NCBI GenBank assembly: GCA_030068145.1 | Contig: JAPJBO010000760.1 | Coordinates: 46,824 to 110,823 of the forward strand | Length of the DNA stretch: 64,000 nucleotides | DNA from: Diplonema papillatum | Lineage: Eukaryota > Euglenozoa > Diplonemea > Diplonemida > Diplonemidae | Direction of reading: 5' to 3' | Shown here: positions 16,406-32,852 of the stretch, in pieces | Layout: each line of letters starts with the position of its first letter | How positions within the stretch are numbered: position 1 is the stretch's first letter | Translations under genes and position numbers: made by a program | Notes under the pieces: model-generated | What the model was told of the DNA's origin: nothing | What the model saw: the letters and a program-made list of their open reading frames with translations, nothing else | Databases searched by the model: none

Positions 16406-16809
16406 ATACTACTACTACTACTACTACTACTACTACTACTACTACTACTACTACTACTACTACTACTACTACTACTACTACTACTACTACTACTACTACT
16501 ACTACTACTACTACTACTACTACTACTACTACTACTACTACTACTACTACTACTACTACTACTACTACTACTACTACTACTACTACTACTACTACTACTA
16601 CTACTACTACTACTACTACTACTACTACTACTACTACTACTACTACTACTACTACTACTACTACTACTACTACTACTACTACTACTACTACTACTACTAC
16701 TACTACTACTACTACTACTACTACTACTACTACTACTACTACTACTACTACTACTACTACTACTACTACTACTACTACTACTACTACTACTACTACTACT
16801 ACTACTACT
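16406..16809 (+). repeat. (CTA)n trinucleotide array 1
   Basis: About 134 uninterrupted TAC/CTA units. It forms the left flank of element A, whose sequence starts at CTGTGATGG. Long open frames through it (poly-Thr, poly-Leu, poly-Val) are artefacts of a stop-free trinucleotide repeat. Confidence 0.98.
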
Positions 16810-16831
16810 GTGATGGAGTCCTGCCCTCGGG

Positions 16832-18844
16832 ATGGCACCCGGGGTGGTAGGTGGGCTAGGCCCTTTTTTGCCGCCAATCCCTCTGCAGCCGGGGATGGAA
16901 CCGCTAGGTGTTATGAGGTTTTCCCCCCATTCTGCTCTTGAGGTGTGGGGGGCTGACGCTCCCTTTATTCCTTCTTTCTTGCCTGAGCCGACCCTTGCAG
17001 AGGGAGCTCCAGGGGTTTTTGCCCCTTCAGCGTCTCAGAGCGGTCCGACGTTCAGAGTGGCTGATCTGCTGCCCGCGGAATATTTACCCACTCCTCCAGC
17101 CGCACCTGGCACTGGCTTTACAGCTCTGCCTCCGCACGTCGGGGATTGCCTGGTGCCGCTGAGTGACGTTGTGGGCCGACGGGTCCACGGCTTCACCAGA
17201 CGTGCGCACAACACGCGTCTTCCCCAGACTCAGGCGGAAAAGGAGGCACCCCTCCATGTGGCGGCGGTGCCGGCCATGGACACGGCGGTGCTCCGACTCA
17301 GGATGAAGCCTGACGTGCGCGTCAGGTTTGACTCCGTTTGGAATGCCACCTTTTTTCCCGTGCATGGTATTAAACAAAAAAATGGTGAAAGCGCTTCCCA
17401 GGGCCAGCAGAGGAGTCACCTCATGCGCGCACACGCTGCCGAGCTTGTGAGGCTAGGCATTGCGTCGCCTTCCGACACGCCGGGCACTTTCCGCAACGTG
17501 CCTTTCACGGTCGTGGAGGAGAAGGCGGGTCGCCTGCGCCAGCGGTTTATTTTGTGGACGCAGGAGGCCAACGATTGGCTGAGCCGCCAAGGCTACGTGG
17601 CCCAGGTACCATTAGGCCACGTTTCGGAGTATCTCAGTGTGGTAGACTCCGAGTGCGCCACGACGCGTGACTTGCGTTGTGGCTTTTATCAAGTCAAAGT
17701 CCCAGAGGAGGCTCGAAAGAACTTCAGATTCCTCGATGAAGACGGCAATGCCTACGTCCTAAATAGGCTGCCAATGGGACACTCGTGTGCACCAGAGCTG
17801 ATGCACACGCTAACAGCCGTCCTGGCTGGCCACCCAGACTTCGTCGGCTCGGAATTCGCGGCCGACGGGGTAACAGTCCATGCCTGGGTGGACAACATCC
17901 GAATTTGTGGGTCTCGTGCGGCAGTGCTCTGCCAGACCGAGGAGCTTGATCGGCTGGCCGCACGGGTCCACGCTTCTTGGAAGCCTGAGGATAGCAACGA
18001 TGCTTCCTCAGACTATGACTTCATAGGGGTCACTTTTGATCATGGTCGGAAGACTGTCGCTCCGGCGGCTCGCCTGATCGAGAAGATCCGTGCCGTTGAT
18101 TTGTCTAGCCCCACCGCCGGTGATTTAGAATCGCTCGGCGGTCGCCTGCTCCATGCGAGTGCAATCGCGAACGCGTTCCCTGGCTCGTTCTGGTTCGCTG
18201 TCAAGTTCTTGCGGCGGATTACGAACAGCCTGAACAAGGGAACCCGAACTCAGACAGAAAGTGTGCATGTGCCGGCTTCCGTACGGAAAGAATTGCTCTT
18301 GTGGATCGATTCGGTGGATGTGAGCAGAAAGTTCACGCGCCTGTCCAAAAATCGCCCGCACGCGGTCTACGTTGACGCGTCGCTACAGGGGTGGGGTGCG
18401 GTGCTGGTCGACCGGCAGACAACAGAACTGATTGTGTTGGGGGGCACGTGGACCGAGCAGGAAGCTCGGCACCACATCAACACGCTAGAAGCACTGGCTC
18501 TGAAGAGAGCCGTAGATGCGCTACCCCCGTCAGTATCAGGGAGCGCAGTCGACGTCCATGTCGACAACACAACCGTGGTCGGGGTGGCGCGAAAGAAAAA
18601 CTGCATGCTGAACAAGGCATTGAATGACGCAGTTGTGCACGCGTTAACCCGGCTACGGGAGTTAAAGTGTTCGTGGTCCATCTCGTGGATCAGTACGAAG
18701 GGGAACCCGGCCGATGTCCCTTCAAGAGTTGCCCTTGCCGCCGACGCCTCGGAAGAGGATCGACAGCGGCTTTTACTTGCGGTGAGGGCATTCTTTACTC
18801 GCGAGGGGGCAGGTGGCGTGACGTCGTCCCAGCGGCGATCATAG
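16832..18844 (+). CDS. Element A RT-RNase H polyprotein (N-terminally truncated)
   Basis: 670 residues. The reverse transcriptase is recognised by motif A (TTRDLRCGFYQV), motif B (LPMGHSCAPELM) and motif C (HAWVDNIR), in which the usual second Asp is Asn. RNase H follows, with YVDASLQGWGAVLV, the catalytic Glu in NTLEALAL, an Asp in VHVDNTTVV and the last Asp in NPADVPSR. It aligns over its full length with the C-terminal two-thirds of the element B and C proteins. The reading frame is intact to the stop at the start of repeat B1. It lacks the gag-like N-terminus, so it may be a dead copy despite the open frame. Confidence 0.87.
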   Translation: MAPGVVGGLGPFLPPIPLQPGMEPLGVMRFSPHSALEVWGADAPFIPSFLPEPTLAEGAPGVFAPSASQSGPTFRVADLLPAEYLPTPPAAPGTGFTALPPHVGDCLVPLSDVVGRRVHGFTRRAHNTRLPQTQAEKEAPLHVAAVPAMDTAVLRLRMKPDVRVRFDSVWNATFFPVHGIKQKNGESASQGQQRSHLMRAHAAELVRLGIASPSDTPGTFRNVPFTVVEEKAGRLRQRFILWTQEANDWLSRQGYVAQVPLGHVSEYLSVVDSECATTRDLRCGFYQVKVPEEARKNFRFLDEDGNAYVLNRLPMGHSCAPELMHTLTAVLAGHPDFVGSEFAADGVTVHAWVDNIRICGSRAAVLCQTEELDRLAARVHASWKPEDSNDASSDYDFIGVTFDHGRKTVAPAARLIEKIRAVDLSSPTAGDLESLGGRLLHASAIANAFPGSFWFAVKFLRRITNSLNKGTRTQTESVHVPASVRKELLLWIDSVDVSRKFTRLSKNRPHAVYVDASLQGWGAVLVDRQTTELIVLGGTWTEQEARHHINTLEALALKRAVDALPPSVSGSAVDVHVDNTTVVGVARKKNCMLNKALNDAVVHALTRLRELKCSWSISWISTKGNPADVPSRVALAADASEEDRQRLLLAVRAFFTREGAGGVTSSQRRS

Positions 18845-19190
18845 CTTGCCTCATGGTCGGTGTTCTTCCCCTCCGTTTGTTCTTTTATGTGAGTACATCC
18901 TGACTGGTTTAACCTTTCCTTTTCGACTGGAGTGGCCAGGGCGGAACGGGACGATCCCGTCAAGTGGGAGAGAGCAGCTGTGTGACGGAAAGTAGGTGCG
19001 AGAACAGGCAAACCTACCTTGTGCACTAGCTACGTTCAACCGTGAATCCGTGAAACAACAAGCAGGTGCCTCCCCACATTCCCTCTGTCAAAAGAGAGAG
19101 AAAGCTGCCAGAGGAACGCCAGCCGAACAACGGCTGCAGACCCCGCCTCAGAACGAGTGCGATCATGCCAGTAGATGCCAGCCACAATTC
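18816..19190 (+). repeat. Element A split direct repeat, copy B1
   Basis: Begins GCGTGACGTCG inside the last RT codons and ends AATTC. Directly repeated 571 bp downstream as B2 (19387-19761). At B1's end the sequence continues CTATGGTTTACTG, the start of A2, so the B1|A2 junction corresponds to the closed end-to-end junction expected in a circular intermediate. Confidence 0.9.
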
Positions 19191-19386
19191 CTATGGTTTA
19201 CTGTGGGAATTGGAGCAAAGCGCATGGCAGGAAGAGCACCCACCCAAACCATCAACAGAAGAGTTTGGGAGGAGGCCGGGGTTCCTACGAGACAGTCACA
19301 CTGGCAGCAACAAAAAGCCCAAATCCAGCAGGAGCAAAGAATGTCAGTCTCACCTTCCTCTTTCTTTTTCCCACCCTCCATCCCCC
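19191..19386 (+). repeat. Element A repeat A2
   Basis: 196 bp. Homologous to the 5' terminal repeat A1 of elements B (20450 on) and C (24281 on) and to A2 of C and D. The most conserved part is GGAGCAAAGCGCATGGCAGG, shared even with the divergent element D, so it is a candidate for a promoter, priming or recombinase site. Confidence 0.8.
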
Positions 19387-31913: not shown

Positions 31914-32126
31914 TCTCGCCTGGTTGGCCCATTGACATGGTCAACAGGCACACTCTATCCCATTCGCTAGTTGCAAGTTATCAAGGTTCTGTCTGACTTC
32001 TCTTTCCTCCCCTTTCCGATGATGAATACTCCGGATGGCGTAGGTAGCCAAGCCCACCCTGAGTACAATGACCGAAGACCTAAGCCGAGACCGAGTGCGA
32101 TGAGGCCAGAAGCTAGCTGCCAATTC
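31907..32126 (+). repeat. Element D split direct repeat, copy B1
   Basis: 220 bp from ATTGTGATCTCGCC, overlapping the RT stop codon, to AATTC. Repeated at 32266-32485. Its sequence is unrelated to the B repeats of A-C except for the terminal CAATTC. Confidence 0.9.
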
Positions 32127-32265
32127 CTTTAGTACACGGTAGGAACTGGAGCAAAGCGCATGGCAGGATGAGCACACCACCCGAGCCTACAACAGGAGAC
32201 TTCGGGTGGGCTGAGGTGGGTCTTCTGAGACTGAATTCTTCTTCTTCCCGCCCTCCCTTGCCCCC
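32127..32265 (+). repeat. Element D repeat A2
   Basis: 139 bp starting CTTTAGTACACGG. It contains GGAACTGGAGCAAAGCGCAT, the one block conserved between families. The matching 5' copy A1 is not present in the window. Confidence 0.8.
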
Positions 32266-32485
32266 ATTGTGATCTCGCCTGGTTGGCCCATTGACATGGT
32301 CAACAGGCACACTCTATCCCATTCGCTAGTTGCAAGTTATCAAGGTTCTGTCTGACTTCTCTTTCCTCCCCTTTCCGATGATGAATACTCCGGATGGCGT
32401 AGGTAGCCAAGCCCACCCTGAGTACAATGACCGAAGACCTAAGCCGAGACCGAGTGCGATGAGGCCAGAAGCTAGCTGCCAATTC
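32266..32485 (+). repeat. Element D split direct repeat, copy B2
   Basis: Second copy of B1, ending AATTC directly before CTACTA of array 5. Confidence 0.9.
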
Positions 32486-32852
32486 CTACTACTACTACTA
32501 CTACTACTACTACTACTACTACTACTACTACTACTACTACTACTACTACTACTACTACTACTACTACTACTACTACTACTACTACTACTACTACTACTAC
32601 TACTACTACTACTACTACTACTACTACTACTACTACTACTACTACTACTACTACTACTACTACTACTACTACTACTACTACTACTACTACTACTACTACT
32701 ACTACTACTACTACTACTACTACTACTACTACTACTACTACTACTACTACTACTACTACTACTACTACTACTACTACTACTACTACTACTACTACTACTA
32801 CTACTACTACTACTACTACTACTACTACTACTACTACTACTACTTCTACTAC
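32486..32852 (+). repeat. (CTA)n trinucleotide array 5
   Basis: About 119 CTA units, the last few interrupted by a TTC. It is the right-hand end of the retroelement train; unique intron sequence follows. Confidence 0.97.

Follow-up and report, generated by a model that had tools for sequence, protein, structure and literature searches.

In the diplonemid Diplonema papillatum, four retroelements with split direct repeats, here called A to D, lie on one strand and interleaved with five arrays of the trinucleotide CTA at positions 16407-32853 of a window of 64,000 nucleotides, which is the whole stretch of DNA analysed here (contig JAPJBO010000760.1 of assembly GCA_030068145.1), apparently within an intron of a phospholipase C gene. 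We consider it probable that such trains arise in two tiers: two other elements, S1 and S2, lay down CTA tails, and elements of the lineage of D, which encodes a tyrosine recombinase (YR), then insert into these tails at TAC|TAC, the elements A, B and C being moved by the D-type YR in trans. The targeting is strong, linked to lineage and not exclusive. An earlier note on this DNA, made from its letters, had described the four elements alternating with five CTA arrays in a single orientation, and our reading of the arrays, split repeats and junctions bears this out; it had also proposed that the microsatellite is a specific target, of which preferential insertion in CTA stands, while the sampled targets are mostly SINE-like 3' tails (SINE, short interspersed nuclear element) and are not the only ones.

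The arrays themselves are not a product of chance, since (CTA)14 starts at 56,328 positions genome-wide compared with 5,511 for the reversed control. Their left boundaries, taken from pure CTA runs of at least 33 bp and sorted by the three possible phases, with imperfections in array interiors counted in, amount to 239, 281 and 206 per phase, against 20, 47 and 32 in the reversed control. Among 30 sampled boundaries of the first, or YR, class, 24 lie directly 3' of the 3' end of a YR-class element; reverse transcriptase/RNase H (RT/RH) sequence is present within 1.5 kb upstream in 20 of these, the four others being short elements that have D-type ends. The remaining six comprise three imperfections inside arrays, one boundary after an S2 fragment, one after unrelated sequence and one, at locus L071, that is undefined. 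All 15 boundaries of the second, or tail, class that were fetched for the purpose directly follow, as read by eye, the 3' end of S1 or S2, even if two of them retain only its last 25-60 bp. The 3' terminal 17-mer of S1 occurs at least 1,051 times and the 3' terminal 22-mer of S2 at least 301 times, with no occurrence of either in the reversed controls; within the first 100 copies listed for each element, the exact sequence TACTACTACTAC comes next in 51 of S1 and 69 of S2, and the next 12 bases match it with at most three mismatches in 88 and 94 copies, respectively, for a chance expectation of 0.0004 each.

CTA adjoins every intact end of A to D, as the earlier note had maintained, and in addition the truncated 5' ends of A and D, a fact that would suit the idea that inserted elements extend the arrays from their own ends, out of a short CTA core. 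This idea, which the earlier note had itself raised, is now largely refuted and we hold it to be the least probable of the alternatives. Tails without any YR element are found at three loci (L106, L107 and L108, with 16, 177 and 12 units), which rules out YR-element ends as the makers of the arrays, and the right flanks of 20 fetched non-array copies show no CTA growth past one CTACTA. Along contigs C1-C253, where both boundary lists are essentially complete and sites were classed by phase rather than by reading each of them, 50 of 110 array sites have only tail-class boundaries, 34 have only YR-class boundaries and 26 have both; in 23 of these 26 the tail-type boundary is the 5'-most.

Copies of S1 are short and combine a common 3' end, a simple-repeat tail and target duplications, which are the features of a SINE. 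On contig C18, a duplication of 15/15 bp flanks a 403-bp S1 plus (CTA)16 (0 of 200 shuffles gave one as long); at L073, a 12/12 duplication encloses a short YR copy together with S1 and the S1 tail (1 of 500 shuffles); and in the window a 12/13 duplication encloses the whole train (0 of 500 shuffles), whereas that of C63 is a weak 10/11 (15 of 500 shuffles). The target duplications therefore support retroposition of S1. A further candidate at L007 was dropped, the repeated letters recurring at about position 43767 of the window. On the plus strand of the window, S1 occupies positions 16229-16406, being shorter than the C18 copy and sharing its 3' end with S1 copies elsewhere; the probable target-site duplication of its insertion consists of 13 bp with one mismatch at 16216-16228 and 32853-32865, also on the plus strand. 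Because of this S1 3' end and the duplication around the whole train, the first array (16407-16809) is most likely the tail of the S1 copy, and the train most likely grew inside that tail. S1- and S2-like fragments without long CTA tails also occur in the window, at 43685-44377 (minus strand) and 1304-1349. The S2 copy of L107 appears to have a short frame starting with ATG upstream of its 3' part, with a weak SAP/Rho_N-like match below the cut-off; this frame is perhaps the 5' end of a long interspersed nuclear element (LINE) joined to the S2 3' end.

Several results weigh against an origin of the arrays as S1 and S2 tails. Two other tail-class boundaries, L063 and L018, follow neither element; an origin as independent microsatellites is ruled out for the 15 sampled tail-class boundaries, and these two follow other sequence. 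Boundaries were read in the first and second classes, to the exclusion of the 206 in the third, and the tail origin consequently covers sampled arrays and may not hold for all. A target duplication was found neither at C23 nor at L061, where the left flank is only 205 bp long; a search of Rfam with window positions 13000-36000 returned no RNA family at E values up to 1; and no LINE partner was identified, none having been sought beyond the GACACATA end common to S1 and S2.

Within the arrays, YR-class elements have left junctions of the form ...CTACTAC|TRTGG and right junctions of the form CAATTC|CTACTA. The internal joint between the repeats B1 and A2 has the sequence CAATTCCTRTGG for elements A and C and CAATTCCTTTAG for D, with the short inverted arms CAATTCC ... 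GGAATTG on either side of it. Part of the same site is kept outside the arrays: in 52 distinct non-array 5' flanks the last bases are T in 34, A in 30 and C in 47, after which come the T and R of the element itself, and 47 distinct non-array D-type 3' flanks begin with C in 43, T in 31, A in 23 and C in 24. At C36 the insertion is in (CTAC)n, with the same crossover phase as in the arrays, and when the two flanks were compared by eye for a few copies outside arrays, several of which lie in tandem repeats, no duplication past a single C was seen. When 30 loci were checked by motif, none had a reversed element at an array. The orientation is fixed because the target is asymmetric, and trains can grow because the array is repetitive and target remains on both sides, as the earlier note had suggested; the largest sites have six YR-class boundaries.

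Other observations at the junctions fit less well. Away from arrays, the 3' flanks of B- and C-type ends give only a weak site, and an empty site was sought with one pattern, for the C419 copy, with no match. Furthermore, the 5'-truncated ends of A (16786-16860), of D (28770-28850) and of one copy at L061 do not fit a pure route through a YR circle. The truncated L061 copy is bounded by an exact 94-bp duplication of its right flank (658-751 and 1855-1948), and 5'-truncated copies might arise by a one-ended or target-primed route.

CTA arrays total about 188 kb, corresponding to 0.07% of the 271-Mb genome (the array number in this estimate is assumed), and the frequency with which YR-class ends are found at them needs to be seen against this small fraction. 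The ends were counted with patterns for which the first 100 listed places were taken each, of 272, 186 and 120. As upper estimates, 3' ends are flanked by arrays in 2 of 2 A-type, 7 of 59 B-type, 19 of 34 C-type, 47 of 100 D-type and 0 of 5 other cases, and A/C-type 5' ends are preceded by arrays in 46 of 100. One letter of the patterns, chosen so as to leave out the internal B1/A2 joint, also loses about a quarter of the non-array flanks, and after correction the array shares become approximately 9% for B, 49% for C, 40% for D and 39% for the 5' ends. Genomic flanks are thus enriched in CTA, in line with the earlier proposal, yet half or more of all copies and the majority of B-type ends lie outside CTA arrays; this counts against the two-tier explanation and rules out exclusive targeting.

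It could be argued that YR insertion is widespread and that copies persist in arrays since these are harmless in introns and intergenic DNA, the bias arising from selection afterwards, and the many copies that sit elsewhere would agree with this. Survival alone is disfavoured, however, because selection would not separate YR lineages, and we judge it improbable. A genome-wide HSIKRGA-type YR motif gives 646 matches, with none in the reversed control, which point to many VIPER-like subfamilies, and most of the 100 listed are not near CTA arrays. Within these 100 YR genes, a same-strand array lies within 5 kb in 13 of the 14 that carry D's own 20-letter variant, compared with six of the 86 others (Fisher p 5e-11; 12 of 14 and p 1.4e-9 without one borderline case with a short array). 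All six fall in three small variants; among the 80 genes of the remaining twenty, none is near an array. When the four array-linked variants are pooled, the comparison becomes 19 of 20 versus 0 of 80 (p 1.5e-19), but this pooling was made post hoc and it is D's own variant that carries the claim. Hence, one part of the recombinase family has a CTA target and its relatives mostly do not, without assuming that the four variants form one clade.

The insertions outside CTA are not random either. Nearly identical copies of C occur in 20 contigs, some of which may duplicate one event; 12 have a CTA-flanked outer end (one of them, C26, with a variant end), five lie in a CCCCYATATGAC minisatellite (L003, L006, L013, L015 and L026, on contigs C951, C937, C433, C262 and C422), one (C165) in an apparent longer tandem repeat and one (C419) in a GGTTACA satellite, so that 19 are resolved, C462 showing the internal joint only. 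The 5' junctions at C951 and C422 have the same AC|element phase. Examination of 20 non-CTA right flanks, namely all 15 of non-array C-type copies and the first five of 52 listed B-type ones, revealed five that pass a periodicity threshold (best shifts of 15, 33, 31, 32 and 41 bp), the GGTTACA satellite, recognised by eye, being a sixth; in the control, 4.7% of 600 window pieces pass. The recombinase may recognise tandem structure itself.

The strongest competing explanation is that the YR recognises the short TAC|TAC alone, the arrays simply holding many such sites without being recognised as tandem DNA. We give it somewhat less than an even chance. It would account for the part of the motif kept in non-array flanks and for the abundance of sites, TACTAC being present at least 56,000 times inside arrays and between about 30,000 (extrapolated from fetched loci) and 66,000 times (extrapolated from the window) outside them, so that roughly half of the total, or more, may lie in arrays. 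Against it, CTA begins only 16 of the 47 distinct non-array D flanks, and the periodic flanks just described exceed their control.

Of the four elements, which the earlier note had all called YR-type, this designation is borne out for D only. Element D (28791-32485), which is 5'-truncated, contains a gag-like fragment (28791-29005), so called by eye from its similarity to the N-terminus of B and C, then the YR (29008-30243) and RT/RH in an overlapping frame (28896-31913), which is the gene order of VIPER and TATE, followed by the repeats B1 (31907-32126), A2 and B2 (32266-32485). In an alignment of ten sequences, residues R255, K284, R348, H375 and Y391 of the recombinase are invariant and H344 is nearly so; we take them to have the catalytic roles of the R, K, HxxR/H and Y residues of tyrosine recombinases. 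DIPPA_05642 matches the protein with 99% identity in an alignment that covers 67% of the query, which assigns the window to D. papillatum; there was no match among Pfam and PDB sequences. With D's YR as query, tblastn returned no match in C and none better than E 2 in A and B; A is 5'-truncated, and the lack of YR consequently rests on B and C, which have long open frames fusing gag-like and RT/RH regions (20826-24074 and 24476-27493). A, B and C share 73-85% protein identity, and about 48-50% with D over RT/RH. A tree of the RT places D and A-C in separate groups, with long branches and moderate support at the dividing forks. The RT/RH profile matches P0109 of Trypanosoma cruzi (944 aa) with E 7e-99 and 32% identity, besides several other matches without organism name; the P0109 record is not named VIPER, and the alignment length quoted for VIPER RT/RH, 948 aa, is close to its own (PMC6681497). 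B and C are probable riders on a D-type recombinase.

All features of the train are on the plus strand. Element A, 5'-truncated, spans 16810-19761, with the RT/RH frame at 16814-18844, B1 at 18816-19190, A2, and B2 at 19387-19761, and array 2 follows at 19762-20451 with 230 units. Element B (20452-24241) carries one B repeat and lacks A2-B2; a short array 3 of 41 bp, at about 24242-24282, separates it from C. Element C (24282-28268) alone retains the complete split layout A1 ... B1 A2 B2, of which A and D keep B1 A2 B2; its A1 begins at 24282, the gag-like plus RT/RH frame covers 24476-27493, B1 27465-27771, A2 27772-27961 and B2 27962-28268. Array 4 lies at 28269-28790 (174 units) between C and D, and array 5 at about 32486-32853. 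The earlier note had considered the arrays pure, which applies to the first four, with 100% match, and nearly so to the fifth, with 99%. Repeat copies within elements are identical over 378 bp for B1/B2 of A, 173 bp for A1/A2 and 309 bp for B1/B2 of C, and 222 bp for B1/B2 of D, and because of this identity A, C and D look young. Just past the downstream end of the train, a minisatellite of about 23 bp (GTGCAGTCACTGTCAGGGGTGGG) extends over 32904-33945, with inverted copies at its left edge.

The host gene contributes, upstream, phospholipase C frames at 13693-16279 with PI-PLC-X (13693-15339) and PI-PLC-Y (15557-16279), the latter frame continuing into S1 DNA, and downstream of the train a frame at 34648-35091 with a C2 domain (34648-35088, E 3.5e-11), all on the plus strand. 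This arrangement supports the placement of the train in one intron, as the earlier note had surmised from the sequence. Given the difficulty of assembling arrays and elements that are nearly identical, the train could be an artefact of repeats, but the same junctions are seen in many contigs with varied flanks and array lengths, and the excerpts consulted of the D. papillatum genome paper report one repeat region validated by long reads and elements in introns (PMC10161547); we regard an artefact as very unlikely.

How, then, would such a train be built? The two-tier explanation supposes that the insertion of S1 and S2 is target-primed and driven by a LINE, which would leave (CTA)n 3' tails of up to hundreds of base pairs. 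D and its relatives, forming one VIPER/TATE-like lineage, would produce a circle with the joint ...CAATTC-C-TR-TGG..., and the D-type YR would recombine this joint with TAC|TAC, with about one C in common. Since CTA arrays are dense in TAC|TAC, insertion would leave CTA on both sides in a single orientation, and the array, still open to repeated insertion, could give rise to head-to-tail trains. A, B and C, with RT, no detectable YR and similar ends, would most likely be mobilised in trans by the D-type YR.

The comparisons with known systems that follow draw on excerpts of the cited papers. The earlier note had assumed that YR retroelements lack such a target preference, which is contradicted by TATE of Leishmania braziliensis, inserted at one position of the telomeric hexamer repeats in tandem clusters (PMC6681497, PMC2696322). 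TATE resembles the present elements in combining YR with RT/RH, in its split direct repeats and in its tandem clusters at one position of a simple tandem repeat; it differs in that its insertions, with a TT duplication, lie in the telomeric hexamer of chromosome ends, in contrast to internal (CTA)n SINE-like tails. The CTA arrays considered here lie inside contigs, unlike the target of TATE proper, telomeric repeats not having been searched. VIPER and SIRE of T. cruzi share the gag-like, YR and overlapping RT/RH order and the layout A1 ... B1 A2 B2; the passages on VIPER mention no simple-repeat target, and the RT/RH of the T. cruzi protein P0109 noted above is only 32% identical. SIRE corresponds to A2-B2 (PMC6681497), and short copies with CTA on both sides (L007 and L018) are similar to it. 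Ngaro elements of Cafeteria burkhardae are YR retroelements preferring virophage DNA (PMC8547959), and thus also have split direct repeats and nest in another mobile element, although their target is virophage DNA and not a simple-repeat tail. In Ngaro the YR follows the RT, whereas that of D lies upstream and overlaps the RT/RH frame. Non-LTR retrotransposons that target microsatellites do so by target-primed reverse transcription and not through a YR. These elements, with a restriction-like endonuclease, provide another case of retroelements directed at simple repeats (PMC4640811). For D. papillatum itself, over 60 frames resembling those of DNA transposons, TATE included, have been described, along with intronic transposable elements (PMC10161547). 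Among the titles and abstract openings in the literature listings examined, none describes a YR retroelement directed to trinucleotide repeats or to SINE tails, a weak absence as subscription papers lie mostly outside. What is new here is the use of another retroelement's tail as target, together with riders lacking YR, the nearest precedent being TATE in telomeric hexamers.

In evolutionary terms, these results describe a retroelement that uses the tail of another retroelement as a landing pad, and offer a natural example of a YR whose target is simple and regenerates. They explain how gene introns can be filled with trains of several kilobases without further loss of target, and place the telomere-targeted TATE in a wider pattern. 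A broader proposition, which we advance only tentatively, is that this YR lineage has come to seek out the tandem DNA that other reverse transcriptases produce, be it SINE tails or, for TATE, the telomere made by telomerase, and that A, B and C have lost their YR and rely on the D-type enzyme. If true, a self-regenerating target would constitute an inexhaustible safe harbour for such a lineage. With hundreds of YR copies in one genome that differ in their proximity to arrays, the evolution of target choice by these recombinases becomes directly testable.

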